A stretch of DNA of 61,538 bases from Desulfobulbaceae bacterium (GTDB lineage: Bacteria; Desulfobacterota; Desulfobulbia; Desulfobulbales; Desulfocapsaceae), in assembly GCA_026988015.1 (NCBI GenBank), contig JALSMA010000018.1:1-61538 (forward strand). The letters run 5' to 3'. The stretch's first letter is position 1. Each line of letters opens with the position of its first letter. Below, piece by piece: positions 462 to 34,063 of the stretch. The translations under genes were made by a program, and so were the position numbers. The notes under the pieces are model-generated. The model worked only from the letters and a program-made list of their open reading frames with translations, had not been told where the DNA came from and did not search any database.

Positions 462-1649
462 ATGAATCTGCCTGAATTGATACAGGATCGGAGGGACTCT
501 GGCCCGTTTTTACCAGCCGTGGTCCTTGCCCTGTTGTGTAGTGTCCTCTCTGTTGGGCCTGTCCATGCCATGATATCGGGTATCTGTTCCGATTGTCACA
601 CCATGCATAACAGCCAGGATAATGCCCCGATGAACTTTGATAACTCGACCACTCCCAATGAAAACCTGACCCGTGGCAGCTGTTTCGGTTGTCACGCCCA
701 GGGCGGTGGCAGTCCTATTGTGACGGTGGGTAACTCTGTTATTCCCCAGGTAATGCACAGCAGCTCAGTTGCCCTTGCAGCTGGAAATTTTGGTTATATT
801 ACCGGTATGGCAGGAAGTGGGGCGGCAGACAGTAAAGGACACAATATCGATGGTCTGACAGGTGTGGACAGTGTACTCTATGCACCTCCCGGTGGAATTG
901 TTAACGTGGGTGGCCCAAGTCATGTTCTGGGGAATACCGTGAACACCAATACTCTCACCTGTGCTGGAAACAACGGTTGCCATGGGTATCGGCATTATGG
1001 CCCCGGTGGCGACAGTACCTACAGGGTAAAAGGTATCACCGGTTCCCACCATAAGAATGTCGATGGGCAGTTGGATCAGGCTACTGAGCCGGCTAACAGT
1101 TACAGGTTTCTTATGGCAGTAAAGGGCCTGGAAAGTTCAGATTGGCAAGAAAATGCCAGTAGCAGCAATCATAATGAATATTATGCATTGCCTGCCCCGA
1201 TTCAGCTGGGTTGTTCAAGTCCTGCGGTCAAGTGTCACGAAGGTCCCGGCGGATTGACTCAGCCTCCGGATGGTACCATGAGTCAGTTTTGTGCAACCTG
1301 TCATGGTAACTTCCATACCCTTACCACATCTGAATCAGATGGTGTCGGCAGTGTAGCCAACTCGCCCTTCATAAGACACCCGACAGATCTTTCTCTCCCC
1401 GTCACCGGAGAGTATGCGGATTATACAGTTTACAATATAAATGCGCCGGTGGCTCGTCTCACGGTTCCGGCTGTCTCGAGCAGTGTTGTGACGCCGGGAA
1501 GTGATGCTGTTATGTGCCTCTCCTGTCATATGTCACATGCCAGTGATTATCCTGATATGTTGCGCTGGAACTATGACACTATGATTTCAGGCAATGCCGG
1601 AGCAGCGGCAGGAACTGGTTGTTTTGTGTGTCATACCACCAAGGACTGA
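462..1649 (+). CDS. OmcS-like multihaem cytochrome (paralogue A), candidate nanowire subunit
   Basis: 395 residues with a signal peptide ending near residue 36. Haem motifs are CSDCH (42-46), CFGCH (74-78), CAGNNGCH (167-174, CX5CH), CATCH (277-281), CLSCH (352-356) and CFVCH (387-391). An extra CX6CH lies at 251-259, so there are six or seven haems. The order of landmarks matches Geobacter OmcS as I remember it: CxxCHTMHNS at the N-terminus, GHN near 126, RHP near 305, CLSCHxxHAS, and a CxxCH within six residues of the end. In OmcS the second His of CHTMH (His49 here) ligates a haem in the next subunit of the filament. A GGAGAG ribosome site lies 5 bases upstream. Family assignment is strong; filament formation is inferred. 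It differs from OmcS in the CX5CH site and in the CX6CH site, which its two paralogues lack. Confidence 0.87.
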   Translation: MNLPELIQDRRDSGPFLPAVVLALLCSVLSVGPVHAMISGICSDCHTMHNSQDNAPMNFDNSTTPNENLTRGSCFGCHAQGGGSPIVTVGNSVIPQVMHSSSVALAAGNFGYITGMAGSGAADSKGHNIDGLTGVDSVLYAPPGGIVNVGGPSHVLGNTVNTNTLTCAGNNGCHGYRHYGPGGDSTYRVKGITGSHHKNVDGQLDQATEPANSYRFLMAVKGLESSDWQENASSSNHNEYYALPAPIQLGCSSPAVKCHEGPGGLTQPPDGTMSQFCATCHGNFHTLTTSESDGVGSVANSPFIRHPTDLSLPVTGEYADYTVYNINAPVARLTVPAVSSSVVTPGSDAVMCLSCHMSHASDYPDMLRWNYDTMISGNAGAAAGTGCFVCHTTKD

Positions 1650-1832
1650 TGGCGTCTCTGGGGCACTCGCAAGCTACAATGAACTGTTTCATGTAGAAGA
1701 AGCTGTATTGAAGAGATATCGATTAGGTCATAGACCTCAAAGTGGAAGGAGTATCTTGTTTTAATGACCTCATGGAACAGGGTGGGGTATGGAATCTGTA
1801 TGTTTGTATGACTAACTTCAACTAGAGGTTTT

Positions 1833-2774
1833 ATGGGTAACAGATTTGCTTCAGTTCCTTTTGTAACTTTTATTCTGTTCTTTGTGCTGTTTTGCAGCAG
1901 CCCAGGTTATGCGGAGATGGCTGATGGCCAACAGCTGACTTTTGTACACGCTGACGTTAGCGCTACCACAAATATTCATTTCAATAAGTATTACTGTACC
2001 GAATGCCATCTCGAAGCTGAAGGCGGGCAGTATAAAGAGTTGCGCTATGACAATTACACCCAGACTTGTCGTTGCCATAATTATACTCCTGAAACATACA
2101 CGCACCCTGTGGGAATAACCTTGCCCCCGGAGAAAAGAAAAAAGATACCTGCTGATTTTCCACTTGAGGATGGAACCATAACCTGTGGAACCTGTCATAT
2201 TCTGCTGTTGCAGTGCCAGGCGGACAGCAGTGTAAAGAGGTTCAATGGTTCATTTTTACGTGTCAATCCACGTCCGTCACGGACAGCCATCTGTTTCAGA
2301 TGTCATAATGAGGCCAGGTACAGGATGATGGATCCTCACAATCAGATAGATCATGCCGGTAATATAATCAAAGAAAAGTGCCTTTATTGTCATAAAAAAC
2401 TTCCAGATGTCGATCGGGCAACCTTGGATCCTCGTCAGGGGCTTGAGGAACTTGTTGCCCCCATCGGTGAACTCGATGTGCTCTGTTACCGATGTCACTA
2501 CAAACAGGTAAAGCTTCATCCCATAAATGCGAATCACTTGAAGAAACCACCACAGAGAATACTCAACAATATACGAAGGTCTGAGCGGAAGCTTGGAATT
2601 ATAATGCCACTGGATACACAGGGGAAGATAACGTGTGTTACCTGTCATAATCCACACGAACGAGGCGTCATTCAACAAGGTAAAGCGGGTGCAGGAGGAG
2701 CCGATGAAGTAGGACGATTACGAGTGTCAAAGAGTGGAGATAAAATTTGTCTCGCGTGTCATCGTAATAACTAG
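1833..2774 (+). CDS. Seven-haem periplasmic c-type cytochrome
   Basis: 313 residues with a signal peptide ending near residue 28 (GYA). Seven CXXCH motifs are visible: CTECH, CGTCH, CFRCH, CLYCH, CYRCH, CVTCH and CLACH. A further CRCH lacks the spacing for a normal haem. The CVTCHNPH motif near the C-terminus is typical of doubled-CXXCH cytochromes. It lies between the OmcS-like gene and the inner-membrane b/c module, so a periplasmic shuttle or filament-base role is likely but unproven. The ATG at 1833 follows AGAGG. No close named family is recognised. Confidence 0.8.
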   Translation: MGNRFASVPFVTFILFFVLFCSSPGYAEMADGQQLTFVHADVSATTNIHFNKYYCTECHLEAEGGQYKELRYDNYTQTCRCHNYTPETYTHPVGITLPPEKRKKIPADFPLEDGTITCGTCHILLLQCQADSSVKRFNGSFLRVNPRPSRTAICFRCHNEARYRMMDPHNQIDHAGNIIKEKCLYCHKKLPDVDRATLDPRQGLEELVAPIGELDVLCYRCHYKQVKLHPINANHLKKPPQRILNNIRRSERKLGIIMPLDTQGKITCVTCHNPHERGVIQQGKAGAGGADEVGRLRVSKSGDKICLACHRNN

Positions 2775-2892
2775 TGCCTGTCCATAAATGTTTTTTCCCA
2801 ACTCTTGGTTGCTGTGGGAATTTTTCATTCCCTTTGATTTAGGGGAAAACTTATTAATGGATAAACGCTAACTAACAGAAAAGGGGGAGGAA

Positions 2893-3945
2893 ATGTTGTT
2901 GAATTTAATAAAGAGACCACACTGGTCTTTCGGGGCTTTACTTATTGCCCTTTGTTTACTGCCTGGATGGGTGCTCGCTGCAGACATGGGGAATTGTCTG
3001 TTGTGTCATAAGTATCCTGGACTGAGCCGGATTGATAATGACGGCAAGATGAAGTTGATGTTTGTAAATGAGGAAATCTTCAATAAAAGTGTTCACTCAA
3101 AGGTAAAATGTGAGGGATGTCACACCGATATCACCAAGATCCCTCATGAGCCGGCAAAACCAGTTGATTGTCTCACAGTTTGTCACATCATTGAGCCCAC
3201 CAGTGAGCAGAAATTTTCTCACAAGTCTGTCAAGACATTCATAGATGAGTCTGTACATAGTAAAATTGATCAAGAAGGAAAACTGAAAAAGTTCAGTGAA
3301 GATATGCCAACCTGTAAAGATTGTCATGATAATCCGCTTTTCAGGCCACTTGCATTTGTTAAAAAAGTACGTCCCGGTATTGCGGAAGATGCCATGGGCA
3401 GGTGTCGGGTCTGTCATGAAAAAGAAGATTTTATCTTCAGGTTTTATAATCACATCACTACCCGTCTCCATAAAAGTCGTAGTCCTCTCAATGTAGCAGA
3501 GGCCTGTGGTAAGTGTCACGATGACAAGGCACTGGTGAAACGTCACGGACTTACCGTAATGGCCGGTTCTTCCTATGCTGAAACATTCCATGGTAAGGCT
3601 GCAAACCTGCTTTCTGAAACCATTCCAGATTGTCTGGATTGCCATGTTGTAAAAGGAAAATCTGTGCATCAGATGTATGGAAATGATGACCCTCGTTCTT
3701 CTACTCATCCCGAGAACAGGGGAGCAATTTGTAATTCAGTGGATTGTCATCCCAAAGCTTCTGTCAAGTTTGCCAACTATCAGGTCCATCCTGTGTTTAA
3801 TAAGGACCAAAGCCCTGTGGTTTACTGGTTCACAACGTTCTTTTACGTCCTTACTGGAGGAACTCTGCTGCCGCTGATGATTATTCTGTTCCTTGATCTC
3901 TTGCGGCGTTTGTTTCCAAATGCCACTTTTAGAAGGAGGAAATAG
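2893..3945 (+). CDS. Eight-haem c-type cytochrome with C-terminal membrane anchor (CbcA-like)
   Basis: 350 residues. A signal peptide runs to about residue 30 (VLAA). There are six CXXCH motifs (CLLCH, CEGCH, CKDCH, CRVCH, CGKCH, CLDCH), a CX3CH (CLTVCH) and a CX4CH (CNSVDCH). A hydrophobic helix at about 313-337 is followed by Arg-rich residues, placing the haem domain in the periplasm with a C-terminal anchor. A strong GGGGGAGG ribosome site precedes the ATG. The gene ends 5 bases before the cytochrome b gene. This pairing resembles the CbcA/CbcB quinol oxidase modules of Geobacter. Inferred role: moving electrons from menaquinol, through the b subunit, to periplasmic cytochromes. The two non-standard haem motifs are unusual. 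Confidence 0.8.
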   Translation: MLLNLIKRPHWSFGALLIALCLLPGWVLAADMGNCLLCHKYPGLSRIDNDGKMKLMFVNEEIFNKSVHSKVKCEGCHTDITKIPHEPAKPVDCLTVCHIIEPTSEQKFSHKSVKTFIDESVHSKIDQEGKLKKFSEDMPTCKDCHDNPLFRPLAFVKKVRPGIAEDAMGRCRVCHEKEDFIFRFYNHITTRLHKSRSPLNVAEACGKCHDDKALVKRHGLTVMAGSSYAETFHGKAANLLSETIPDCLDCHVVKGKSVHQMYGNDDPRSSTHPENRGAICNSVDCHPKASVKFANYQVHPVFNKDQSPVVYWFTTFFYVLTGGTLLPLMIILFLDLLRRLFPNATFRRRK

Positions 3946-3950
3946 AAATC

Positions 3951-4868
3951 ATGACTAAATATCCTCGTATAAAATTAATAAATGGTGAAAAATATTTTTT
4001 CAGATTTGATATGGATCTCAGGATCCAGCATATTTTTCTTGCGGGCACAGTTGTTATCCTGGTCTTGAGCGGTATGCCGCTTAAGTTCAGTGATGCATCC
4101 TGGGCACCTTATCTTTACGCCATTTTTGGCGGCATTAATTTGGCCCCAACGGTTCACAAGATAACAGGCGCCATCATGCTTCTTCTTTTTGGATACCATC
4201 TTTTCTGGATAGCAAAGGTAGTATACAAAAATCATTATCTGCGTATGAAGAGAGAGGGGACTTACACCACCAAGGGGTTTCTTCTAAGAGTCGTCAAATT
4301 ACCCATGGTTCCAAACTTGAAAGATCTCAAAGATATTATTGATCTTATGAAATATCTGTTCTATTTCACCAATGTCCGTCCCAATGGCGACGAGTACACC
4401 TGGAAAGAAAAGTTTGATTACTGGGCTCCTTTCTGGGGTATGTTTATCATTGGTGCCTCTGGAGTCATCATATGGAAGAAGGAGCTGTTTACCCAGATAA
4501 TTCCTGGAGAGGTTATCAACTTCTTGCTGATTGCTCATAGTGACGAAGCTTTGCTGGCCGGTCTGTTTCTCTTTATCTGGCACTGGTACAATGTCCATTT
4601 TTCCACCTCGGTGTTCCCCATGGGAACAGTATTTCTGACAGGTTACCTGTCAGAGGAGTTAATGTGTGAAGAGCATTATGATTATTATGTGAAAGTGATG
4701 AAAGAAGAAGGTTATGAAAAGGAGATTCTACCACCCCATGGTGGTGGACATGCTCCAAGCTGTTCAGATTATGCTCCAAAAGGTGATGATGGGGCTGCTT
4801 CCTTTGAAAAAATTTCAGAAGCTGAAACTTCAGAACATCTTGCCAAGGAAGGAGGAACAGCAGCATGA
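3951..4868 (+). CDS. Di-haem cytochrome b membrane subunit (CbcB / formate dehydrogenase gamma-like)
   Basis: 305 residues with four predicted membrane helices. Candidate haem b ligands are His27 (QHIF), the His of VHKITG near 69, GYHLF near 83, AHSDEALL near 196 and WHWYNVHF near 211. This is the pattern of cytochrome b561/FDH-gamma quinone-reactive subunits. The cytoplasmic C-terminal tail is charged and contains a His/Gly stretch. It overlaps the next gene by 4 bases (ATGA) and follows the anchored 8-haem cytochrome by 5 bases, so the three are very likely translated together as one complex. Inferred role: menaquinol oxidation feeding the extracellular electron route. Confidence 0.83.
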   Translation: MTKYPRIKLINGEKYFFRFDMDLRIQHIFLAGTVVILVLSGMPLKFSDASWAPYLYAIFGGINLAPTVHKITGAIMLLLFGYHLFWIAKVVYKNHYLRMKREGTYTTKGFLLRVVKLPMVPNLKDLKDIIDLMKYLFYFTNVRPNGDEYTWKEKFDYWAPFWGMFIIGASGVIIWKKELFTQIIPGEVINFLLIAHSDEALLAGLFLFIWHWYNVHFSTSVFPMGTVFLTGYLSEELMCEEHYDYYVKVMKEEGYEKEILPPHGGGHAPSCSDYAPKGDDGAASFEKISEAETSEHLAKEGGTAA

Positions 4869-5830
4869 AAAATTTCCTGACAAAGATATACATACTGGCC
4901 TTCATGGCACTGGTGACGTATTTCGGGGTGATTATCTGGAATCTAACCTTTGCCCATCTGATACATGAATACCATGAAAGACATGCTGGAAATGTTGAGT
5001 ATAGTGAAGAAGATATCGCTCAGCAGGAAAAGGACAAGATGTCTTTTGAACAGGTAATCCTGAAAAGTGAGAAACGGGTCAAAAATTATCTCGGTTATCG
5101 TGTCCTTGAACAGCAGTATATCAAGGGACATTTTCATCATATCGGTTTTGATGTGGGGCCGGACAAATATTCATACTGCAGTTCCTGCCACGGTGATATG
5201 CCCCATGACAACGTAACTAAAGATATGCGTGCCTTTCTGAATATGCATGCTTTTTTCATTGGATGTCAGACTTGTCACTCCAGGCCTGAAGGTGAGATGA
5301 CCACAGGTGTCTATCAGTGGTATGACCGTGAGACCGGTGAAATTGTTTCAAGTCCTGTGAATGATGCATCTCCAGGAACATACAAGGCCAAGATCATTCC
5401 ATTTGTGTTGGAAAATGACGCACTGGTACGGATCGACAGTAAGGAGCGGATCGAGTTTGTCGCGCAGTATCGTCTGAATGAGAAAGACCTTTCAGAGGGG
5501 CAGCGCTCCAAAGCCAAGAAGTTGATCCACAGTGTTGTCAGCAAGAAGCCCGTGATGTGTGAGGAATGCCATTCCAAGGAAAATCCTCTGCTGCCTCTTG
5601 AGAATCTCGGATATTCCAAAAGGCGCGTTGATTCCATAACAAGCACAGAAGTGGTTGGTATGATCAAAAATTATACCAAATTCTATATGCCCCAGATGCT
5701 TCATCCAGGTGTGGCAGATGACGCTGTACAGCAGGAGCAGGTACAACAGGCTACTCCTGTGGTTCCAGTTGCTTCGGAGTCCGCTGCTCCTGATGCCAAA
5801 CATCAGGCTGCTGGTGAGGCGGAGGAGTAA
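4865..5830 (+). CDS. Membrane-anchored three-haem cytochrome c (NapC/NirT-like position)
   Basis: 321 residues. One N-terminal membrane helix (about 8-28) has no clear cleavage site, so the periplasmic domain is tethered. Three CXXCH motifs are present: CSSCHGDMPHD, CQTCHSRPEG and CEECH. An Ala/Gln/Pro-rich tail of about 45 residues ends the protein. Its start overlaps the cytochrome b gene by 4 bases. It probably completes the inner-membrane module with the preceding two genes. It is not a canonical NapC, which has four or five haems; the family is uncertain. Confidence 0.75.
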   Translation: MKNFLTKIYILAFMALVTYFGVIIWNLTFAHLIHEYHERHAGNVEYSEEDIAQQEKDKMSFEQVILKSEKRVKNYLGYRVLEQQYIKGHFHHIGFDVGPDKYSYCSSCHGDMPHDNVTKDMRAFLNMHAFFIGCQTCHSRPEGEMTTGVYQWYDRETGEIVSSPVNDASPGTYKAKIIPFVLENDALVRIDSKERIEFVAQYRLNEKDLSEGQRSKAKKLIHSVVSKKPVMCEECHSKENPLLPLENLGYSKRRVDSITSTEVVGMIKNYTKFYMPQMLHPGVADDAVQQEQVQQATPVVPVASESAAPDAKHQAAGEAEE

Positions 5831-6160
5831 TGTCATAGATCTTAATTCGTGAAGATTTCATGGTCTGATTATTTTTGTAACATGGTGATAATAAAAATAA
5901 ATGATCAGGTGTGTTTGAAAATCTTGAAAAAAGGTCACTTGATAGATGGCTAAGTAAAAACTTTAGATGTGAGGTGCATATTTTTTGTTTGATTTCGGCG
6001 TACCAGGGTACGTCGTAATTGAATAAAAAATGTAGCAACGAAACAGGTGAAGAGTTTTTACGACTCCATCATGTTTGAAAAAATCAGAAGCACCACCTCC
6101 GAATGCTCACGGATTCTGGATAGAGTAAGATAGAGGTTTACTGGAGGCGGCACCAGGAAT
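5831..6160. other. Intergenic region holding a MITE-like repeat
   Basis: 330 bases without a gene. It carries a hairpin-prone repeat (5945-6070) described separately. The remainder is AT-rich and may hold the promoter of the NHL gene, but no clear -35/-10 pair was found. Confidence 0.6.
5945..6070 (+). repeat. MITE-like dispersed repeat, copy 1
   Basis: About 126 bp bounded by imperfect inverted ends: GATGGCTAAGTAAAAACTT at the left, and a right end that reads GATGGAGTCGTAAAAACTC on the other strand. The middle holds a palindrome (GCGTACC AG GGTACG). Related copies are at 13087-13253 and 15874-16001, with fragments near 17950 and 61173. Similarity to copy 3 extends about 15 bases beyond the left end (AAGGTCA...TTGATA). 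Confidence 0.75.
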
Positions 6161-7186: not shown

Positions 7187-7301
7187 AGTGTTGAACAGCA
7201 ACATTCACAAATCCTTTAAAGATTCAGTAAAATAGAGGCAGCATAACAGTGCTTATCTTCCTGATATTCAGGTTCTAAGAGTTTCAAGCAGGATTGAGTG
7301 T

Positions 7302-11755: not shown

Positions 11756-11860
11756 AACGTAAAGCTCCCTCTCTTCTACACGAGACAACAATAGCTTGAG
11801 GATGAACACAGGATTGAGAGCGGAGCTGTTGATTTATATATTATTTAATGGAGTATCCTC

Positions 11861-12919: not shown

Positions 12920-12937
12920 CAGAGAACAGGTAACAGT

Positions 12938-14602: not shown

Positions 14603-14606
14603 ACTG

Positions 14607-20855: not shown

Positions 20856-20928
20856 GGGATGTGTCCTCTTTAGGTAGAGTTGTAAATTCTTTTTCAAGCC
20901 TCTGGGCCCTGGTTGCTGTGCTGCCATG

Positions 20929-21990: not shown

Positions 21991-22153
21991 AATCGACCTG
22001 TTCCATGGAGAGATCCTGTGATATCCGGGTTCTCCTTTAAGGGTTAGGTTCCGGGCTTCCACGTTGAATTTCCCGTGACTATAGCTAAACACTTGTTATT
22101 ACGGACAGAGTGAGTATGGGTGTCATTTTACTCATCATTGCAGAGGGCTCCTC

Positions 22154-23047: not shown

Positions 23048-23099
23048 TTGGTTTCTTACACTCCACTTGTTCTGATCAAGGGTCATCTTGAACATGTTA

Positions 23100-24275: not shown

Positions 24276-26269
24276 CAGTTTGACCTCCCTTTATGACAGG
24301 GGCTGCAGTTGCCTTCCTGAAAAGGTGCATGGCCAACCGGGTAGAGCAGGCCTTTATCTGGGCCACCATGAGCGTCATGGCAACTATTACAGGAGTCAGG
24401 ACCCGGTTTAATGCCTTTATGAACTGTGGTGAATTCGGGACCGGTTACGGTATGACACTCTGCGCAGAGCAAGCTGCCTTTTTTGTTAACCATGCCAGGT
24501 TCATTGGAGCCATGGGCCTGGTGACACTTGAGGCAGTTTTTTGCCGCCGGTCTGTGGATCACTCCTTCCCGCCAAAACTGAGCAACGTCTGTATGGCAAC
24601 TGAGGCAGATAACAGGTTGTGCTTTTTTGAGAATAAAGTCATGGGGTGAGCCGTGGGCCGCATGACAGGTGGTGCAGTTTTCATCCACTGCAGGTTTATG
24701 GGGAAAGGTGGCGTTCAGGATAATTGAGTTGACATCACTGTGACAATCCAGACAGAGCTTGCCGGGTTTCTTCTTTATGACATAGGAATAATCAGCAGAA
24801 TGCGGCGAATGACAAATGTTACAGTCCCCATTGGCCACCGGTTCATGGGGTCTGATATTTTCTTCCGACTTCTGGATTGTTTCATGGCAGGGGGCGCAGA
24901 GGCCACCACCAGTGTTCTCTGCCCGGAGAAAGGTTTTTTCCGTGGCTCCATGGAGCTGATGGCAGCCGCTGCAGTTTCCAGTGGCAAATGGTTGGTGCAG
25001 GCTGAACCTGCCGCGTTCATCGGCCTGTTTTTTATGACAGGAGAAGCAGAGCTCTCCCTGGGTGCTCACCAGTAGCCGTGCGCTTTGGGATTGATGGGGC
25101 TGGTGACAGGTATTGCAGCTCTCTCCGGCGGCTGGCTGATGGCTTCCGCCGGATTGCTTGTATACATCTCCGTTGTGGCAGGTGAGGCAGAGGGTTTTGT
25201 TGTCGTGTTTAAGCTGGAATTTACGGGGAGCGGCGTGGCCGTTGTGGCATGAGAGGCATTGCCCGTCCACAACCGGTTTGTGACGACTGATGATTTCAGG
25301 TTCACTCTGGTCCATCATCGGCCCTTTCATCTTCTTTTTCAGCACTTCAGGTTGATGGCAGTCAAGGCAGATCCTATTGGCAGGTTTTGCCAGCAGAACC
25401 CGTTCATCACTGGCATGAACAGAGTGACAGCTGATACACTGTTGATCCAGGTAGGGTTTATGGACACTGTTCTTCTTTGTGGCTGCCATTGGTTTCTTGT
25501 GGCAGTCGAGACAGAGAGTGTTGGTTGGGGCGCTGGTGGTGATTTCTTTTCCATTGACCTGATGACATGAATCGCATTTTCCCAGTTCCATCGGTTGATG
25601 CTGGTTTTTCTTAAGGAGACCGGGGGCATCACTTGCATGCGGAGTATGACACTGCATACAGCCACTTTGTACTGGATAGTTGCTGTGGGACTTTATGAAT
25701 GTATCCCGGTCTGCCTGGTGGCATGAGAGGCACTGTGCATCTGAGGGCATGGTCAGGAGACTGGCGTTGTCAGACTTGTGTGGAGTGTGGCATGTCTGAC
25801 AGCCATCATCCAGTGGCGCGTGAATATACTTTTTCTGAAATGCCGACTGTTCATGACAGCTGAAACAGGTTGCCTCAGGGGTCTTTGTCAGCAGTTTCAG
25901 GTTTGTTGAATTGTGTGGAGAGTGGCAGAGACTGCATTCGCCCCTGGCCACAGGGGCGTGGACAGATTTTTGATCAGCGGCCGGTGCTATTGTTTCATGG
26001 CAGCTGTAGCAGAGATCCGGCTCGGTTTGTCGCAGGAAGAGCCCTCCGATCAGACCATGGGGTAGATGACATTTGTCGCAGCGGTCATTTTTAACGGGTT
26101 CGTGAACAAATCCTTGCTTGAGCCGCTGGCCCATTTCAGGGTGGCAGTCAAGACAGCCCTGGACTGGTCGTTTATTCGACTGGCGATCCTGTACACAGGA
26201 AAAGAGGACGGCACCAATAATAATGATACAAAAAGGGAAGACTCTTTTGTTGAATTTAGTGATTTTCAT
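24275..26269 (-). CDS. 26-haem c-type cytochrome lipoprotein
   Basis: 664 residues. The signal peptide ends in a lipobox (VLFSC, Cys25, Val at +2, compatible with outer-membrane sorting). I count 26 CXXCH motifs from CLDCH near residue 39 to CSPCH near 657. The array is a doubled-CXXCH repeat of about 45-50 residues (HxPVxxGxCxxCHxPH, then a second CxxCH). This is the largest haem count in the window. It overlaps the prolyl isomerase gene by 14 bases and the 16-haem gene by one, so all three are translated together. Candidate outer-membrane electron conduit beside the beta-barrel. Confidence 0.86.
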   Translation of the reverse strand: MKITKFNKRVFPFCIIIIGAVLFSCVQDRQSNKRPVQGCLDCHPEMGQRLKQGFVHEPVKNDRCDKCHLPHGLIGGLFLRQTEPDLCYSCHETIAPAADQKSVHAPVARGECSLCHSPHNSTNLKLLTKTPEATCFSCHEQSAFQKKYIHAPLDDGCQTCHTPHKSDNASLLTMPSDAQCLSCHQADRDTFIKSHSNYPVQSGCMQCHTPHASDAPGLLKKNQHQPMELGKCDSCHQVNGKEITTSAPTNTLCLDCHKKPMAATKKNSVHKPYLDQQCISCHSVHASDERVLLAKPANRICLDCHQPEVLKKKMKGPMMDQSEPEIISRHKPVVDGQCLSCHNGHAAPRKFQLKHDNKTLCLTCHNGDVYKQSGGSHQPAAGESCNTCHQPHQSQSARLLVSTQGELCFSCHKKQADERGRFSLHQPFATGNCSGCHQLHGATEKTFLRAENTGGGLCAPCHETIQKSEENIRPHEPVANGDCNICHSPHSADYSYVIKKKPGKLCLDCHSDVNSIILNATFPHKPAVDENCTTCHAAHGSPHDFILKKAQPVICLSCHTDVAQFWREGVIHRPAAKNCLKCHQAHGSNEPGMVNKKGSLLCAECHTVTGPEFTTVHKGIKPGPDSCNSCHDAHGGPDKGLLYPVGHAPFQEGNCSPCHKGRSN

Positions 26270-27887
26270 CTACCGGCCCCAGCTCTTTTTTGAGATTCTG
26301 CCATACGGAATCATTAACCTTCACCTTGTATTCTTTTTTGAGTTTTTCCAGATAGTCGCTGCGGAGCTTCTGGCTTTTTGCTGTCTGCAAGGTCGTCCTT
26401 ATTGTCTCCCTGACATCGGATAACGGCTGGATCTGAGCAGGCCTGCGCTCTATGAGCTGAACCAGAGTAACATGACCATCAACAGAAAAGACGTCACTCA
26501 CTTCATTGATAGTTAGTTTGTCAAGAACTTCTTTTACGGTTTTGTTAATATGGTCCACTGGCAGATCCCGTATGGGGATATCTTGGCCGGTTCTTTTCTG
26601 GGCCAGGAGCCTGAAGTCTCCACCCAGGGCAACTTCCAGCCATAGAGAGTTCAGGCCATCCTCTGATCCTTCAACAATTACCATGCGGATCACCTCGGGC
26701 CGGCTGAAAAATTTTATATTTGTATTGTAATAGTCTTCAATCTCTTCATCGCTGACGACAACATCTGCTGAAAAAAGCCGTGCTTCAAGGAGTTTTACCA
26801 TCTGGTGCTGACAGTAAAACTGGTAAATTGCTTTAAAAGGGGGCTTGGTCTCGTAACCCCTAGCCACTCCCTCCCATGAAGTTAAGGTCTGATCTATTAT
26901 ACCATTGACGACCTGGTTTTTGAATTGAAAACTTGTGTCTTTGCTGAAACCATTTTTCCTTCTGAACTGGTGGAGCTGCTTGAGTTTTCCCACAACAATC
27001 TTTTCTGATATATTGCCGTGGTTTGTGTAGATCAGAGGCTCATCAGACAGCTCTTCGTCGGGGACGGTGATGTCGAGTTGTTCCAGGCGGTCGGTATCGA
27101 TCTTGACCTGATACTGTTTGCGGAGATTCTTGAGCAGTTCAATGGTGAGCCTAGTTTCTTCTTTTTTCCAGATCTTTTTACGGAGACTTTCCCTGATAGA
27201 TTCCATGTCATCACGGGTCCCCTCCTGTTTATTCTGGAGACGCAGAACCACAAAACCTTCTTTCCAGGGAACAGGTGGGGATAGATCTCCTTTTTCAAGT
27301 TTGTTGAGAATGGGGAGCCAGCCGGGATTTATGGTGACAGGCCTGTACCACTCAATCCTTTTGGCATAGAAGCCACCCTTGGTCTCAGCCATACTTGCAA
27401 ATTCTTCGTCATTGAGTGGCTTGTCACTGAGAGTGTCTGTGAAGTCTGTTGCGGTATCTTCTTTTTTGAAGAAAAAGATATTGAGCTGGTAGAGTGGGGA
27501 GTAGGTGTCAAGGTAGAGTTCCCAGAGGGCGTCATCTGTAACCTTTATTTTCTGATCCACCTCTTCACTTTTGAGTTGCATCAGGGTTCTGGCCTTGAGA
27601 AAGGTACGCGTTTTGTAGCGGTATGCCGGTGCTTCATAGAGTTTCATCTTCTCGGCTTCTTTAAAGAGGAGGTTCCATTCGATAAAGGTATCTGGGGTTT
27701 CGGGAAACTGCATGCCCTCTTCCTCCCAGTTGGCCCACCAGTCTTTGAAATCTTGGGCCGAGTAGTCATTTTCACCGATGGTTACCAGGGTTGGCGTTCC
27801 CCAGGAGAACCAGCCACCCTGGCTGGGTAGTGCAGTGGACAAAATGAGAACAGTGATGCAGTAGATAATCGTTTTTATTCTGGACAT
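26256..27887 (-). CDS. SurA-like parvulin peptidyl-prolyl isomerase/chaperone (OscH-like)
   Basis: 543 residues from the ATG at 27887, giving a signal peptide (MSRIKTIIYCITVLILS...PSQG); an upstream ATG at 27911 is in frame. Residues about 25-130 resemble a SurA N-terminal chaperone region. Two parvulin-like segments follow (about 130-235 and 375-490), the second containing IRDLPVDHINKTVKEVLDKL and VSDVFSVDGHVTLVQL. Both lack an obvious set of parvulin catalytic residues, so chaperone activity may dominate. A prolyl-isomerase chaperone (OscH) is required for OmcS nanowire folding in Geobacter; this gene is the best counterpart. Overlaps both neighbours by a few bases. Confidence 0.75.
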   Translation of the reverse strand: MSRIKTIIYCITVLILSTALPSQGGWFSWGTPTLVTIGENDYSAQDFKDWWANWEEEGMQFPETPDTFIEWNLLFKEAEKMKLYEAPAYRYKTRTFLKARTLMQLKSEEVDQKIKVTDDALWELYLDTYSPLYQLNIFFFKKEDTATDFTDTLSDKPLNDEEFASMAETKGGFYAKRIEWYRPVTINPGWLPILNKLEKGDLSPPVPWKEGFVVLRLQNKQEGTRDDMESIRESLRKKIWKKEETRLTIELLKNLRKQYQVKIDTDRLEQLDITVPDEELSDEPLIYTNHGNISEKIVVGKLKQLHQFRRKNGFSKDTSFQFKNQVVNGIIDQTLTSWEGVARGYETKPPFKAIYQFYCQHQMVKLLEARLFSADVVVSDEEIEDYYNTNIKFFSRPEVIRMVIVEGSEDGLNSLWLEVALGGDFRLLAQKRTGQDIPIRDLPVDHINKTVKEVLDKLTINEVSDVFSVDGHVTLVQLIERRPAQIQPLSDVRETIRTTLQTAKSQKLRSDYLEKLKKEYKVKVNDSVWQNLKKELGPVDENH

Positions 27888-28465
27888 GGGAGCATTCCTT
27901 CGTTGATCCAATCGGTTATAATTTCCTGGGACATGCGGCGGGCCAGGGCTGTAAGAGTTTTGAGTCTGCCTATGTGCATGAATTGTTGATATTCTTCTCC
28001 GCGACGTCTGTGGTAGGTTATCCAGAGGATCTCACCGGTTTTTCCATGATAGAGCAACAGAATGAGGGTGAGCTCAGTGTCCACAAAATTTCCACTGTCT
28101 CTCTGGTACATCTTTTGCACAATTCCTCCAACGAGCAGGTCTGAACGAAGGCGGCCTCCAATCATCTTTAACTGTTCCCGATTTGGAAGCAGGTTCGGGT
28201 ATAAAAGGAGCTGCTGATACATATTTCTGACATCCCCTTCCTGGAGGAGTTGAAATTGGCCGGAAGCGGCCAGTTCAGAATGGAATATCTTTGCGACCAT
28301 ATCCCCGCCCTGAAGATAATTAGATTCGTTCAGGAACGGGAGTATGGCAATTTTACAGGTTCCTTCAGCTGGAAGCGGTGCCAGTATCTTGGTCGCGGGG
28401 ACCTGTTTGCCACAGGCAGTCAGAAGGAGCAGAGTAATCAGCAGGTAGGAAAAAATATTTTTCAT
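27875..28465 (-). CDS. CsgG/TolB-N-like outer-membrane lipoprotein (small)
   Basis: 196 residues. Lipobox LLTAC (Cys18, Gly at +2) indicates an outer-membrane lipoprotein. The start of the mature domain (CKIAILPFLNES, then a MVAKIFHSELAASGQFQLLQEGDV stretch) is the fold pattern of CsgG, LpoB and related alpha/beta lipoproteins. It is shorter than CsgG (about 260), so a membrane-spanning strand region is not evident. It overlaps the isomerase start by 13 bases and follows the next protein by 3 bases. Together with the two genes upstream it may form the channel-like OscEFG-type set. Confidence 0.7.
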   Translation of the reverse strand: MKNIFSYLLITLLLLTACGKQVPATKILAPLPAEGTCKIAILPFLNESNYLQGGDMVAKIFHSELAASGQFQLLQEGDVRNMYQQLLLYPNLLPNREQLKMIGGRLRSDLLVGGIVQKMYQRDSGNFVDTELTLILLLYHGKTGEILWITYHRRRGEEYQQFMHIGRLKTLTALARRMSQEIITDWINEGMLPCPE

Positions 28466-28468
28466 ATC

Positions 28469-29944
28469 CTAGAACTCCTCCACCCATTCTGTTTCAATGC
28501 TGGTTTCAACTTCTTCGATCTCACCTTCCACCACCTCAAAGAGGTCGCGAATACGTTTTTTATATTGATTGCCAAGGATGTCTCTGGCGGTGAGCAGACA
28601 CTGAATTTTATCCCTTGAGTCATTGCTGAGGTCGAGTTCTATGGACGCAGGCAGCTCTGTGCCCTGTGCTAGTTTGAGAAGGCTTCCATCTTCCCTGAAA
28701 AATTTGGCCCACCAGAACATGAGAGGTGTTTCGGTGAAGTAATCAAGGTCAACTCTTATCTGTGCCTCCTCACGAGATATTTCAACGAATATCTCCGGCA
28801 ATTCAGGGAGGTACTGTACCAGGGCCTCGGTAAAGGATTCACGTTCAGCACGGTCCCAGACCCTGAAGGTGATCAGATATTCTCCCGGGTCTGCGGTTGT
28901 ACCGTAGGAGGTTTTGCCATTCCATGTAAGTCCTCGTGGGAGGTTACCGGCTTTTTCGATGAGAACAACGACATCTTCATCTTCATTGGTAACTGATATT
29001 GCCCAGCGGCTGATGGGTTCGGGTTTGAGAAGCTTGGGGATGATGCGCAGGTTTCTGCTGAAAAGTATATCCCCGTTCAATTCAGTTCCCAGCAGCGTCA
29101 GCCGGACACCGGGTTCTTCAGTGTCAATACTGTAGGTACCGATGACACTCTCTTTACTGATACCGGATGGCCAATGGGCAAAAAGATTTACAGTGTAGGT
29201 TCCTGGATTCTGACCAACTTTCCAGGAGGCACTGTACGAGAAATCATCTTCATCACCGCTTAGTGGATAATGCTGGTTGTCTACCTGAATTGAAAGTTCC
29301 GGCATGCTGCCTTGGTCATCGATGGATTTGTGGAGTTTAACTCTGCAGAAGATCTCTTCACCCGGTCGCAGATATTGGGGGGTTATGAAGACGGTGTCTA
29401 TGTTGAGGTTGGTCGCAGACTTCACTGCAGTAGTTTTAGAAATGGGCATGCTGGCAAACAGCTGGTCGAAAAACGGAGCGTACAAATCCTCAAGAGTGTG
29501 TGGATCATTGAGACCTAAGAGGTTGATCTGGTCAGCATAGCTGAGGTTTGCCGTCTGGCTCCAGATAATTTCCGAGTTTTCGGCCCTGCTGAGCTGAAGG
29601 GTGAGGCAGAGAATAGGCAGTTCACCTGTGTTGACCTGGAAGAGGGTTCCCTGAAGGACAAGGTCAGCCTGTAATTCCTTGTGAACAAGCGATGCCTGGT
29701 AGCTTGTCAGCTTGCCAAGTTGTCGAATCCGGTTGCGGACTAGAAAGCGCATGACCTCTTCAGCAGGAATGAGAGTTTTGCCACGATTCGTGAGTTCCAG
29801 GCGCACCCGTTCCGTCACAGGATTGTTTATGCCGTTGCTATCTCGAGTGAGGTCGAGTAGTGGGATGAAGGCAATGGTCTGGGCCCATGCGGTCCCGATG
29901 GACAGCATGATACTGAGCAGCAGGGTCAGGTGCAGTCGGAACAT
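28469..29944 (-). CDS. Periplasmic protein with CsgG/TolB-N-like and Ig-like domains
   Basis: 491 residues from the ATG at 29944 (signal peptide MFRLHLTLLLSIML...AWAQ); the frame is open to 30007. An N-terminal domain (TIAFIPLLDLTRDSNGIN ... LVLQGTLFQVNTGELPILCLTLQL) resembles the TolB-N/CsgG-type fold. The C-terminal two thirds are beta-rich Ig-like repeats, including DPGEYLITFRVWDRAER, seen in periplasmic gliding or secretion proteins. It ends 3 bases before the small lipoprotein start. Candidate periplasmic adaptor of the export channel. No exact family name. Confidence 0.68.
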   Translation of the reverse strand: MFRLHLTLLLSIMLSIGTAWAQTIAFIPLLDLTRDSNGINNPVTERVRLELTNRGKTLIPAEEVMRFLVRNRIRQLGKLTSYQASLVHKELQADLVLQGTLFQVNTGELPILCLTLQLSRAENSEIIWSQTANLSYADQINLLGLNDPHTLEDLYAPFFDQLFASMPISKTTAVKSATNLNIDTVFITPQYLRPGEEIFCRVKLHKSIDDQGSMPELSIQVDNQHYPLSGDEDDFSYSASWKVGQNPGTYTVNLFAHWPSGISKESVIGTYSIDTEEPGVRLTLLGTELNGDILFSRNLRIIPKLLKPEPISRWAISVTNEDEDVVVLIEKAGNLPRGLTWNGKTSYGTTADPGEYLITFRVWDRAERESFTEALVQYLPELPEIFVEISREEAQIRVDLDYFTETPLMFWWAKFFREDGSLLKLAQGTELPASIELDLSNDSRDKIQCLLTARDILGNQYKKRIRDLFEVVEGEIEEVETSIETEWVEEF

Positions 29945-30003
29945 GGTGGATCTGTGCCGTGAGCGGAAGAAAGACCACATGCTATGTGTTAGTACCGGAT
30001 GTA

Positions 30004-30588
30004 TCACTCAACTCCCTTGGGTATGGTTATGAGTATGTTGTCCAGCAGATGTACTGTGATCTGAAAAGCATCCATGGGGTCAAGGCCAAAGAGACGATCG
30101 GTGAGGGAGTAGCCGTTCAAAGTGTCGCTTGCCCGCCACAGGATGAGGGCAGATTCGCCGTCAAGGAGCTGAAGGCTGACAGAAATTTCAGGGTAGCTGA
30201 AGGAGCCCTGCCGATTTTCCCCAATGTTGTTTACTGTACCAAGGATTAAGCCCTGGACATTGAGCCGTTGAGAGAGCTGCTTGACTATGGGGATATCCAG
30301 GGGACTGTTTCTGTCGATTCCCATCTCCTGCAGGGCATTGTCGACAACCCCCTTATCCACCACATCAAAGATTCCTTTTGCCATGATTTGAGTTGCGGTA
30401 ATGTCACGGATACGGTCTGCTGCAAACTCATCCTTGGTATTGTTCTCAAATGGCAGGATGGCAACCCGTGTGATAAAATTCAGGTCAACTCCCTCCCGCA
30501 AAAAGGTCTGGGTTGAGGCATTTTGGCCACAGCCGTAGCTGGAAAGGAGGGTGACGGTCAGTAACAGGAGCAATGGTAGTTTTTTCAT
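30004..30588 (-). CDS. CsgG/TolB-N-like outer-membrane lipoprotein
   Basis: 194 residues. Lipobox SSYGC (Cys20, Gly at +2). The mature part has VAILPFENNTKDEFAADRI followed by a FDVVDKGVVDNAL segment and a GLILGTVNNIGE strand, the hallmark layout of CsgG/LpoB-type proteins. It lies 3 bases after the beta-barrel stop. CsgG itself secretes curli subunits through the outer membrane; whether this shorter protein can form a pore cannot be judged from sequence. Confidence 0.73.
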   Translation of the reverse strand: MKKLPLLLLLTVTLLSSYGCGQNASTQTFLREGVDLNFITRVAILPFENNTKDEFAADRIRDITATQIMAKGIFDVVDKGVVDNALQEMGIDRNSPLDIPIVKQLSQRLNVQGLILGTVNNIGENRQGSFSYPEISVSLQLLDGESALILWRASDTLNGYSLTDRLFGLDPMDAFQITVHLLDNILITIPKGVE

Positions 30589-30591
30589 AAT

Positions 30592-32778
30592 TTAAAACCT
30601 GCTTGTTAATCGGGCATTGATAAGCCAGGTATTTTCCTCCTGGCCGATGATATAACTTGCTATGGATTGCATCGTAAAAAATTCGCTTAAGTTCCAGCTC
30701 CAGTTGGCGTTCACCCCCTGCAGGATGTCATCTTCTATGGAGCTGATTCTGTGTCCTACGGTGAAGTTGGTCTTGGAGGTTCGAACTAATGAGAAATTAC
30801 TGTCAAGGAGAAGGCTCTGGTATCCAGACCAGGCCTCTCCGTATCCCTGGGAAGCATTGGCTTTTATTGAAACCAAGTCTGATGGACGCCAATTTATATT
30901 GAGGGTGGCCCTGCCACCAGATTCCTGGAGGTCTGTGATTTCGTTAAAACCAATACCTTCTGAGCCATGTTCTGCGATAAAGTCAACCAGCAGAGTGGGG
31001 CGCAATCTGGCGGTGAGCGTCCAGCGCAGGGAGAGCCCTTCTGAAGAACGGTCGAGCTCCTTGTTGGTGTTAAAGTTTGTGTTGAGCTCAAAGGTGGTGT
31101 CAAGATTTGGATAGAGAATCGCGGTGACGTTGAGATGGAAGGAATCGTTACTGGTCTGAGTCTTTCCGTCGGTGGTGTTTTCACTTCTGCTGATTCCCAC
31201 AGTAGTGTCAAGGGTGGGAAGGAAAATTGATTGGATATTTAGCGAATAGGAGCGCTGCCCGGTATCGGCAATGTCGCTGTTAGTTGTTGTGGTATCATTT
31301 ACAGTGAGTGAGGGGGCAAAGTATTGGTTGTACCACCACTGGATTCCGGCAGATTGAAAGATACGGGTTCTGTCATTTGAAGTATTGGATTGTGAATCAT
31401 CCCAGACCATGGAGTAGTTCAGGGTTGTTGAGGTGAAAGGAGTGTAGCGAAAGTTCATGTCAATCAAGGTCCTGGTGTAGTCCTGTTGTTCGATGTAACT
31501 GGCTCCTGTGGCACCTGTTCTCTGGTTTCTGTAGGCCTCCATTTCTGTTATCGGTATGGAAAGCGTCGTGGGCCAGGCCGTTGCCACAAGTTTTATGTAG
31601 AGTTTTTGAACAGTTGAGAAGTTTACATTGAATCGGAAGTTGTTCTGGTCATAACTTGTGGCCGGGTTCCTCTGATCGAGTTGCCAGTTTATCCCATCAT
31701 CACTGGAGTAGAGATCCCAGCGTAAGGCGCCTGTCTCATCTATCAGTATGGGGTCGATCTGTCCAGTGTAGACGTAGATTGTGTCCACTTCCTGAACATC
31801 TGTTTTGAGACCGATATTGGCCATTTCATGGAGGTTGATCGAAAAAACAGCACTGTTTCTGTTGCCATCAAGAAGGCCGGGTGCCGCAGGAAGAGCGCCG
31901 CTTGTGGGAACCGGATCCACACCGGCAAAAGCCTGACTGGCCTGGATGTTGATCAGGGCACTGTTGCCGCTGCCGGGAGTGACTGTGAGGTCAGTGGTGC
32001 TTTGGGTCAGCTGTCCGGAGGCGTTGATCGAGAGTCGGTTTTCGAAAAAGGAGTCGCCGTAATCAACACGTCCGAAGTGTTTCAGTTCATCATAGCTTGT
32101 CCCTTCAACCCCATCCTCCCGTATCTGGCTATAGAGGCTGTAGTAGGTCTCAACGGTTTCTGATTCCCATTGGAGTATAAATTCAGACCATTGATTGCTG
32201 GCATTGGTCAGGGGGATCTTTTCGTTGTCCTTGAGCCATTTCTGGCCGAAAATGACACTTACGTCCGGCCAGAATTCGTAGTCCCAGTTTGAAGCCAGGA
32301 TGGTTTCCCAGCTCTGGTCAACCTGGTCAGGCTTGTCAGTGTTACTTGTTTCGTTAATGAGGCCGCTGATTTCGGTTAAAAAAAGATCGTTTTCGATCCG
32401 GAAGCTTCCTGCCGGGGAAACGGTCTTTCTGACAATGTTGCCGGTGGTGACGTTTTTTGAATAGCTGAAATTGGTGTCAAAGGAGATGGCTCGGGTAACC
32501 TGCGGACTCCACTGTATGCCATAGCGCTGGTTAAAGGCATTGGTGGCCTCAGTTTCGCTGGGGGTGACACTGCTGTACTGCCATGACCCATCCAGGGATA
32601 TGACTTCTGCCCTGACGTTGCCAGTGAAGCAAGGCAGGAAGAGACAACAGAGAAGAGCCCGGAGCGCTATGGCCCGTTTTGCAAAAAACGGTGGATGGGC
32701 TACTGTTACTGGCATTTTTTTTGTAATGGCTGTGGCAGCAAGGTTCATCCTTGTTAAGGAGTTGATTATCCTTCTCAT
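30592..32778 (-). CDS. Outer-membrane beta-barrel porin (OscG-like candidate)
   Basis: 728 residues. A signal segment is present near residues 38-57, though the true start could be a later Met (for example 32748, after AACAAGG). The body alternates polar and aromatic residues in short strands separated by Asn/Asp/Thr-rich loops. The protein ends ...LINARLTSRF with a terminal Phe, the classic barrel-assembly signal. Residues about 300-420 form a beta-sandwich-like insert (GINWQLDQ ... KLYIKLVATAW) resembling a discoidin domain. With the lipoproteins and multihaem proteins downstream it fits a porin-cytochrome or filament-export complex. Related barrels occur in omcS-companion clusters. Confidence 0.78.
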   Translation of the reverse strand: MRRIINSLTRMNLAATAITKKMPVTVAHPPFFAKRAIALRALLCCLFLPCFTGNVRAEVISLDGSWQYSSVTPSETEATNAFNQRYGIQWSPQVTRAISFDTNFSYSKNVTTGNIVRKTVSPAGSFRIENDLFLTEISGLINETSNTDKPDQVDQSWETILASNWDYEFWPDVSVIFGQKWLKDNEKIPLTNASNQWSEFILQWESETVETYYSLYSQIREDGVEGTSYDELKHFGRVDYGDSFFENRLSINASGQLTQSTTDLTVTPGSGNSALINIQASQAFAGVDPVPTSGALPAAPGLLDGNRNSAVFSINLHEMANIGLKTDVQEVDTIYVYTGQIDPILIDETGALRWDLYSSDDGINWQLDQRNPATSYDQNNFRFNVNFSTVQKLYIKLVATAWPTTLSIPITEMEAYRNQRTGATGASYIEQQDYTRTLIDMNFRYTPFTSTTLNYSMVWDDSQSNTSNDRTRIFQSAGIQWWYNQYFAPSLTVNDTTTTNSDIADTGQRSYSLNIQSIFLPTLDTTVGISRSENTTDGKTQTSNDSFHLNVTAILYPNLDTTFELNTNFNTNKELDRSSEGLSLRWTLTARLRPTLLVDFIAEHGSEGIGFNEITDLQESGGRATLNINWRPSDLVSIKANASQGYGEAWSGYQSLLLDSNFSLVRTSKTNFTVGHRISSIEDDILQGVNANWSWNLSEFFTMQSIASYIIGQEENTWLINARLTSRF

Positions 32779-32892
32779 TTTTCTACATATATAGGGAAGG
32801 TAGGATAATACAAAACCGGAGGATGGACAAGCAAAGAATCGTCATAAACTTGCAATATCTTAGGCGAATTGTAGTGAATAGTATAAAAAAAA

Positions 32893-32918
32893 CCCCCTGC
32901 TCAAAAATGAGGAGGGGG
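32893..32918 (-). terminator. Intrinsic terminator after OmcS-like paralogue C
   Basis: On the minus strand the stem CCCCCTCCTC / GAGCAGGGGG with an ATTTTT loop is followed by eight T residues (32885-32892). It lies 27 bases past the OmcS-like stop and before the barrel gene, so most transcripts should stop here, leaving OmcS-like C more abundant than its export genes. Confidence 0.85.
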
Positions 32919-32944
32919 TCTGTGCTACGTAAAAAAAGTGATAA

Positions 32945-34063
32945 TTACTTGGTGGTATGGCAAGTAAAGCATGCTCCAGTACCACTTACACCAGCATTTA
33001 CAACGCTGTAATCCCAACGTAACAGGTCATCATTTGGTGTGCCGTGAGCACGATGACAGGAAATACAGGTTACAATGGTGTCGTTTGAGAATGATACTGT
33101 ACTGACAACACCTAGCGTCATGTCAGAGCTAGCAACGGGAGCGGTCACCTGGTAATCATTGTTTACACCGCCATAGCTGTAATACTCTGCGGTGGTGTCA
33201 GCGATGCTGCCCATGTCAAAATCTGTTGGATGGCGAACCCAGGGGCTTGCGAAAACACCAGTTGTCGGGTTGGTCCCGCCCACATTTCCGGCACCGTTAT
33301 GAAAAGAATCGTGACACTGGGCGCAGAGTGAAGAAATTGATTGAGGATCTTCGTCATTTTCAGTGGATCTTGCAATGCCTTTGTACTGATTATGTTCAGT
33401 TGCAGTAGGTGTGAATTCCCAGTCCCAGTCTTCTATTCCAACAATTCCATCAAGGAAACGGTAACTTTTGGCAACAGTGGAGCCGTCGATTGTTGCATCA
33501 TTCGCATGATGCGAACCACTGATTGCGCCAAAGTCATTAGCAATTGTTTTGTCACCATGACATCCGTTTGTTCCGGCACAGGTAAGTTGAGGCAATACAG
33601 CCCCACCTGTATACCCTGGAGGAGTTGTGCCAAGTGTCCCATCTTGGGCTGAAAGACTATCCGTTGCAACATTGTGACCGGTGGAATCTAATGCTGTGCC
33701 GTTTGCTGCGACCCAGTAAAAGTTTCCGCCAGCCAATGTGTTTCCGGATAAGCCATCATTGGTATAGTCCGGGAGGGTGGTGCTGTTGACAAATGGAATG
33801 GTGAAGTTACCAGCAACTCTCTGCTGATTGGTTCCTGTATGACAGGCAACACAACCCTTCACCAGCAAGACCTCATTGGGTGCAGTCTGAGGGGCTCCGG
33901 TAGAATCTACGGCCATCGGAGCACCATCCTGACTGTTATGCATGGTATGACAAACAGCACACTGGCCTTCCACCTTTGCAGAAGCTGAAGCAGCCATCAA
34001 AAGAACACCAAGGCTGACACTGGCTAAAACTCCATACCTGTAGAGTTTTCGGTTAGATTTCAT
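32945..34063 (-). CDS. OmcS-like multihaem cytochrome (paralogue C), candidate nanowire subunit
   Basis: 372 residues with a signal peptide ending ASASA near residue 29 and a strong GGGAGG ribosome site. Six haem sites: CAVCH (35-39), CVACH, CAGTNGCH (CX5CH), CAQCH, CISCH and CFTCH ending four residues before the stop region. Shared landmarks: CHTMHNSQDGAPM, TGHN, SGSHH, CAQCHDSFHNG, RHPTDFDM, CISCHRAHG and LLRWDY. His42, the second His of CHTMH, matches the OmcS inter-subunit ligand. It is first in the minus arm, followed by its own terminator and then the barrel/CsgG-like/isomerase genes, so it is the most likely principal filament subunit. Confidence 0.88.
   Translation of the reverse strand: MKSNRKLYRYGVLASVSLGVLLMAASASAKVEGQCAVCHTMHNSQDGAPMAVDSTGAPQTAPNEVLLVKGCVACHTGTNQQRVAGNFTIPFVNSTTLPDYTNDGLSGNTLAGGNFYWVAANGTALDSTGHNVATDSLSAQDGTLGTTPPGYTGGAVLPQLTCAGTNGCHGDKTIANDFGAISGSHHANDATIDGSTVAKSYRFLDGIVGIEDWDWEFTPTATEHNQYKGIARSTENDEDPQSISSLCAQCHDSFHNGAGNVGGTNPTTGVFASPWVRHPTDFDMGSIADTTAEYYSYGGVNNDYQVTAPVASSDMTLGVVSTVSFSNDTIVTCISCHRAHGTPNDDLLRWDYSVVNAGVSGTGACFTCHTTK

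Follow-up and report, generated by a model that had tools for sequence, protein, structure and literature searches.

Three OmcS-like cytochromes at the locus

The stretch of DNA analysed here (the window: 61,538 nucleotides, positions 1 to 61,538 of the forward strand of contig JALSMA010000018.1, assembly GCA_026988015.1, from a Desulfobulbaceae bacterium) encodes three multihaem cytochromes, here called A, B and C, that resemble OmcS, the filament-forming cytochrome of Geobacter sulfurreducens. Their genes and the sites on which the analysis turns are listed below, with CXnCH denoting a motif that has n residues between its two cysteines.

462-1649, plus strand: A, OmcS-like multihaem cytochrome of 395 residues, with five CxxCH, one CX5CH and an extra CX6CH; His49
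20929-21990, minus strand: B, OmcS-like cytochrome of 353 residues from an ATG, with five CxxCH and one CX5CH; His35
32945-34063, minus strand: C, OmcS-like cytochrome of 372 residues, with five CxxCH and one CX5CH; His42
960-983, plus strand: CX5CH site of A (CAGNNGCH)
21550-21573, minus strand: CX5CH site of B (CAGSMGCH)
33557-33580, minus strand: CX5CH site of C (CAGTNGCH)
1212-1238, plus strand: extra CX6CH site of A (CSSPAVKCH, residues 251-259)
33938-33961, minus strand: residues 35-42 of C (CAVCHTMH), the first haem site and the histidine aligned with OmcS His16

All three frames are open where an earlier note on this DNA had placed them, and in each the second histidine of CHTMH is the residue that the note had named (His49, His35 and His42). 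The note did not state strands; read on the plus strand, the stretches of B and C contain several stops. The N-termini look signal-peptide-like by eye and carry no visible lipobox, and searches of Pfam and NCBIfam at or above cut-off return generic labels only (doubled CXXCH; cytochrome c7 for C). The three proteins share, in order, CHTMHNS, CxxCH, GHN, a third site, CxxCH, RHP, C[LI]SCHxxH and CxxCH. The motif order drawn up in the note is accordingly found in all of them, save at two places: the third site is a CX5CH (CAGxxGCHG), and the fourth, given there as CxxCH-x-x-HN, is in truth spaced CxxCH-x-x-x-H, with HT instead of HN in A. The histidine that follows the fourth site is a poor marker of OmcS, since just 11 of the 21 OmcS-clade rows of our joint alignment keep it. 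The signature of OmcS proper, six canonical CxxCH motifs of which the third reads CxxCH[DN][PA]H, is found in none of the three.

Kinship with OmcS, which the note had proposed, is borne out by profile comparison and, for A and C, by the predicted fold. Searched against the PDB, a profile of 31 homologues reached OmcS (6ef8) at E 4e-29, with profile positions 34-341 aligned to OmcS 8-348, followed by a nitrite reductase chain (E 0.0084) and by the filament cytochrome OmcE at E 0.02; the search thus led to OmcS and not to a non-filament family, the outcome that the note had set against its own idea. By hhalign, a 90-row profile (A3) and OmcS align over 282 columns at 31% identity and a probability of 99.7%, and in direct pairings among a few sequences A, B and C share 26-28% identity with OmcS (E between 2e-11 and 2e-13), the reference sequence being identical to 6ef8_A over 407/407 residues. 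The relation is a distant one, because PDB searches with the single sequence of A or C, taken as far as E 1, miss OmcS, and OmcS as query finds no match in the host genome at E 1e-8. Across 297 genomes from the phylum the same query gives matches in 17 at E 1e-8; 23 of these matches show 44-69% identity across the OmcS length, those inspected carrying a CxxCH[DN][PA]H third site, and the weaker ones (mostly 28-33%) include CX5CH proteins. Within the host genome C retrieves B (49% identity, or 44% in a second comparison), A (41%) and a fourth paralogue (42%) on a different contig (G000:C61), at E <=1.1e-40.

In a tree of 123 rows the CX5CH proteins make up 91, A, B and C among them, and OmcS with 19 relatives lies across one branch with a Shimodaira-Hasegawa-like approximate likelihood-ratio (SH-aLRT) support of 99, so that A, B and C fall outside the OmcS clade; proteins with a split third site (see below) form one clade of nine (SH-aLRT 96), whose placement close to the A type is weakly supported (80). 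This was a quick tree with a midpoint root and flagged long branches, from which rows cut to fewer than five CxxCH, rows longer than 470 residues and L130, a repeat of the L113 locus, had been dropped, and in which the homologues L163, L172 and L183 were not included.

The AlphaFold2 models of C (90 sequences, predicted local distance difference test score 80.0, predicted template-modelling score 0.79) and of A (68 sequences, 70.8 and 0.73, respectively) were built from alignments that contained no OmcS. By a second-look aligner they superpose on OmcS chain 6ef8_A with Z 14.4 and 4.2 Å over 265 residues, spanning OmcS 7-407 (C), and with Z 14.2 and 4.4 Å over 265 residues, spanning OmcS 8-407 (A); OmcE comes second in the same comparison, at Z 3.4 (C) and 2.9 (A). 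Because the training entries behind the AlphaFold2 weights predate 6EF8, the fold match is probably not a memory of that entry. A Foldseek search against viral models gave nothing below E 0.4. For comparison, the published model of DA_402, an OmcS-like protein to which we return below, scores 14.3 by DALI against OmcS (PMC12545173).

Haem ligands and the third haem site

In OmcS one haem ligand is contributed across the subunit interface, its donor being His16 of CHTMH. Of the 12 axial histidines of OmcS, 11 are intra-subunit and one, on haem 505, comes from the neighbouring subunit (PMC6584659). The central claim of the earlier note, that this inter-subunit histidine is retained, stands for A, B and C and extends to 70/70 full-length homologues chosen by similarity with no CHTMH filter. 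This set represents 70 of 92 matches (32 from the loci and 38 further full-length proteins), in frames of more than 200 residues with at least three CxxCH, and leaves out 20 partial matches and two full-length proteins of genome G038, which likewise carry CHTMH. A different set of 87 proteins from 80 loci had required CxxCHx[ML]Hx[SA], RHP and a suitable ATG, after a locus scan with CHTMH and CLSCHRAH patterns of which the best 80 of 522 were kept; because these rows were motif-selected, the invariance of histidines among the 91 CX5CH rows of the joint alignment (from which two neighbour proteins, L124_om13 and L127_om18, were omitted) and in profiles A3 and A4 is partly by construction.

Twelve histidine columns are present in 70/70 of the similarity-chosen homologues, namely six proximal ones and, in the numbering of C, His42, 130, 186, 255, 278 and 340, while His185 is found in 69/70, His224 in 60/70 and one fourth-site cysteine in 68/70. 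OmcS and 20 relatives show 11 histidines at 21/21 and His110 at 20/21 with one gap; these comprise six proximal residues and His2, 16, 110, 147, 257 and 335, the number that six bis-histidine haems need. In the joint alignment 10 of the 12 OmcS-clade columns hold histidine in 91/91 CX5CH rows, columns 16, 110, 257 and 335 among them. Invariant histidines of the CX5CH proteins match four of the six distal ligands of OmcS in position. A, B and C are like OmcS (6EF8, 6NEF) in fold (A and C as modelled), in haem-site order and in the His16 equivalent. They are unlike it in an adjacent His185-His186 pair, present in 91/91 CX5CH rows and in 0/21 OmcS-clade rows, and in the segment that precedes the last haem, which is much shorter than in OmcS. 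OmcE (7TFS) shares inter-subunit histidine ligation as a principle (PMC9473688) but matches our proteins weakly in both sequence and fold.

At the third haem site OmcS has CSSCH, whereas A, B and C have CX5CH. The expanded motif occurs in 47 of the 70 similarity-chosen homologues; among the other 23, three (L163, L172 and L183) have a single canonical CX2CH there, just before HH or RH, and 20 have two sites, one ranging from CX2CH to CX6CH followed by a CX2CH. L025, too, has two sites at this place. While hhalign reads CX5CH as a three-residue insertion in CxxCH, MAFFT aligns it gapless, and the simplest reading, judged from sequence, is that of a haem site with a three-residue expansion. A long haem loop has a precedent in a wire: in OmcZ one haem motif contains a 14-residue loop, situated at a subunit interface (PMC9473688). 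A search of the literature on CX5CH, CX4CH and CX3CH haem motifs returned, by title or abstract start, nothing on these proteins; PMC12545173 counts CXnCH motifs with n = 2 to 5, so that the motif convention itself is in print.

Beside a CX5CH gene we also observed neighbour paralogues with the third site split into two motifs (seven in all), at the following related loci:

L041, 11159-12295
L062, 11124-12239
L070, 11205-12359
L077, 8715-9845
L098, 10432-11463

The extra site of A lies between the third and fourth OmcS-type sites. Its spacer varies among relatives, from CX7CH (L003, L037, L051) and CX4CH (L095, L096, L099) to CX2CH (L110), and it is likewise a CX2CH, as opposed to the CX6CH of A, in DA_402 (CNRCH) and in the neighbour of DA_402 (CNACH); L144 is also listed among the relatives with such a varying spacer. 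The seventh motif of DA_402 had no paired histidine in the authors' model and was left out (PMC12545173).

Gene neighbourhood, relatives and host

B and C stand at the two ends of a ten-gene block, ordered as B, the eight genes below, and C, in which the four genes marked as core correspond to the core of the oet cassette.

22154-23134, minus strand: NHL beta-propeller, core (PF01436); 40 and 47% identity to the two G038 copies
23100-24275, minus strand: 16-haem cytochrome, core (OetA or OetB), with 16 CxxCH; 44 and 47% to the two G038 copies
24275-26269, minus strand: 26-haem cytochrome, core, with 26 CxxCH and an N-terminus that is lipobox-like by eye; 42 and 44% to the G038 copies
26256-27911, minus strand: PPIC-type peptidyl-prolyl isomerase, core (PF13145, E 1.5e-25)
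27875-28465, minus strand: small secreted protein or lipoprotein, LpoB/TolB_N-like below cut-offs
28469-30007, minus strand: conserved protein of 512 residues, no Pfam match
30004-30588, minus strand: LpoB-like lipoprotein (PF13036 above cut-off)
30592-32778, minus strand: putative outer-membrane barrel of 728 residues, OetI candidate, no Pfam match at E 0.01; 23 and 25% to the positional G038 proteins

The core operon of seep sulfate reducers consists of a six-bladed propeller, a 16-haem and a 26-haem cytochrome and a peptidyl-prolyl isomerase, and exists in two copies in Desulfurivibrio alkaliphilus (PMC5539420). The same four genes, together with OmcS-like ones, are present in the window. 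In the sulfate-reducing partners of anaerobic methanotrophic archaea the oet cassette comprises OetABI, OmcX, OmcS-like and Apc2a genes, and for this OetABI conduit with its OmcX and OmcS-like genes filaments have been proposed, in a study that covers four syntrophic clades (PMC10553843). The 728-residue protein would be a barrel as judged by its sequence and position; it and the 512-residue protein are kept in place with G038 at 23-34% identity. A frame with 22-30 CxxCH is found in 54 of the 80 related loci, many of which end at contig edges. We also noted a second context of CX5CH cytochromes, near 10-haem and 14-/15-haem genes and not the 16/26-haem pair, at the following loci:

L038, L039, L044, L052, L057, L089, L096, L098

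The surroundings of A include 18- and 14-haem cytochromes as well as a membrane module:

2893-5830, plus strand: 6-CxxCH cytochrome, b561-type cytochrome b and 3-CxxCH cytochrome (PF01292 above cut-off)

This module is a plausible candidate for a quinol-to-periplasm step and, with the nearby cytochromes, could provide an inner-membrane and periplasmic feed. Genes with 14 CxxCH (9980-11755) and 10 CxxCH (14607-15797), as in the second context of CX5CH cytochromes, are also present in the window. The open reading frame listed at 19560-21026 runs into the end of B. The protein with 8 CxxCH that it encodes probably begins at about 20855 (MFQGLL...), directly downstream of B, and G038 has a protein of 34% identity in the equivalent position. 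An island of deviating base composition was looked for and none was seen (G+C 0.474 at 1-34063 and 0.480 at 34726-61538).

The published relatives can be tied to the genomes compared here through a DA_402 primer printed in PMC12545173, which has a single exact match in one of 257 genomes of the order; this genome, G038, is for that reason taken as Desulfurivibrio alkaliphilus. There the ten-gene block is colinear at one locus, with a CX5CH protein at either end; judging by map position and by locus tags with a spacing of ten genes, this pair is probably DA_756 and DA_765. The order of the eight inner genes recurs at a second locus, where DA_402 stands on the side of C and a split-site OmcS-like protein on the side of B. 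The DA_402 frame carries, like A, B and C, a CX5CH (CAGAKGCH), CHTMH, HH and RHP, and it has an extra site where that of A sits. With identities of 37% (A), 31% (C) and 30% (B) to DA_402 (214, 142 and 137 bits), as against 26, 28 and 26% to OmcS (53, 55 and 59 bits), A, B and C are closer to DA_402, which itself is 23-24% identical to OmcS. B is 45% identical to its positional counterpart in G038. C has no one-to-one partner there, its best match being the B-type protein (43%), while the protein in its own position reaches 36%. DA_402-type proteins constitute an OmcS-like sister clade (PMC12545173, Nature 2025) whose members are predicted to be extracellular; in the same work the most prominent extracellular OmcS homologue of D. 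alkaliphilus is reported to rise more than 100-fold. The suggestion of the note that the three subunits might build filaments suited to different conditions gains no support here; in D. alkaliphilus one set of sulfide-oxidation/iron-oxide conditions is reported to induce DA_402, DA_756 and DA_765 alike (PMC12545173).

That the host is not a Geobacter, as the earlier note had thought likely, is supported by the homologue searches. Among named genomes the closest copy of C is 88% identical, and the host encodes a DsrA above the family cut-off. At E 1e-10 matches to C occur in 22 of 56 genomes (the host and 55 relatives): the host itself, five of 19 other genomes of the genus, none of 15 that belong to the family but not the genus and 16 of 21 that belong to the order but not the family, a patchy spread that suggests gain or loss. 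The host also has two ResB frames (four matched pieces; G000:C24 and C1) and five PF01578 cytochrome-c-assembly matches (C58, C24, C77 and C22), so that several haem lyases could serve unusual motifs.

Proposed filament assembly and its alternatives

In light of these results, A, B and C are cytochromes of OmcS fold (A and C as modelled) that belong to the OmcS-like sister clade, with B and C beside an oet-type conduit, and we consider it likely that they are secreted and polymerise as wires. Each protein would bind six bis-histidine haems in a chain, with haem 3 attached through CX5CH, and the second histidine of CHTMH would ligate the fifth haem of the next subunit, leading to head-to-tail stacking like that of OmcS. 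Electrons would pass between the resulting wire and the 26/16-haem porin conduit at one side, and between the wire and extracellular minerals or cells at the other. Several observations weigh against this proposal. Foldseek with the C model listed OmcE alone from the PDB (E 5.5) and not OmcS, and the OmcS fold match itself comes from the second-look aligner, in which two chains were compared for C and five for A. In the joint alignment OmcS His2 is lost (histidine in 5/91 CX5CH rows, as against 20/21 OmcS-clade rows), and the His144 column holds histidine in 0/91 CX5CH rows and the His147 column in 91/91, a pattern that depends on the alignment; with His2 lost and the His144 column empty, the ligand scheme of the CX5CH proteins differs from that of OmcS. 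The 47 CX5CH proteins of the similarity-chosen set keep 13 histidines at 47/47, His185 included, which is one above the need of six haems, so that the histidine count does not force an inter-subunit bond. The CHTMH histidine taken alone is weak evidence as well, because CxxCHxxH is common in multihaem cytochromes and recurs at numerous positions in the neighbouring 16- and 26-haem proteins. It is also important to note that whether OmcS filaments carry current in cells is disputed (PMC11077965).

Part of the same evidence would suit extracellular cytochromes of OmcS fold that act as monomers or short oligomers, be it as terminal reductases or as a haem-rich matrix, with the CHTMH histidine on a haem of its own chain or on none: the thirteenth invariant histidine, where 12 are needed, could ligate the fifth haem from inside the same chain, and the differing ligand scheme and the frequent CxxCHxxH of the neighbours fit as well. 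We regard this alternative as possible though doubtful, given that the fold of A and C matches OmcS over nearly its full length and that the published AlphaFold2 oligomer of the related DA_402 is a filament (PMC12545173). It is unlikely that the proteins are pentahaem, their CX5CH holding no haem (for example, forming a disulfide) and the chain being interrupted at haem 3. While CX5CH does lie outside the canonical CX2CH, and gapless alignments place its histidine on OmcS His147, a distal-type ligand, and not on His144, the columns of C162, C168 and H169 are conserved in 70/70 homologues, the three homologues with a single motif of canonical spacing have it at this very place before HH or RH, and hhalign reads the site as an expanded CxxCH; moreover, 13 conserved histidines suit six haems better than five, and the OmcZ loop provides a precedent (PMC9473688). 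A role as periplasmic electron carriers, with which signal-peptide-like N-termini devoid of a lipobox would agree, appears very improbable in view of the OmcS fold and of the extracellular location predicted for the sister-clade proteins (PMC12545173).

Where the CX5CH proteins lack OmcS His2 and the His144 column they conserve His185, His186 and His255 instead, and we infer from the alignments that two of these three may replace His2 and the ligand beside the third site. Building on the proposed OmcS-like stacking, we tentatively suggest that the CX5CH proteins could represent OmcS-type wires of a structurally separate class: haem 3 would sit on CX5CH, two distal ligands would be swapped for two of His185, His186 and His255, and the A type would carry a seventh side haem. 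The latter would be held off the main chain on a loop drifting from CX2CH to CX7CH, in a role comparable to that of OmcZ haem 6. The idea of filaments is plausible and, for relatives, already in print (PMC10553843, PMC12545173). The ligand comparison (an expanded haem site, the loss of His2 and new conserved histidines) was not found in the main-text parts of PMC10553843, PMC5539420, PMC12545173, PMC6584659 and PMC9473688, where, or in the supplements of which, it may nevertheless stand.

Were A, B and C to assemble in the manner of OmcS, OmcS-type wires would be made next to a 16/26-haem conduit by sulfur-cycling bacteria only distantly related to Geobacter, with consequences for iron-sulfur coupling and for the exchange of electrons with methane-oxidising archaea. 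The unusual attachment motif of the third haem merits a structural look, and together with the exchanged ligands it would provide a natural test of how extensively the haem chain of a cytochrome wire can change with its fold and stacking ligand unaltered.

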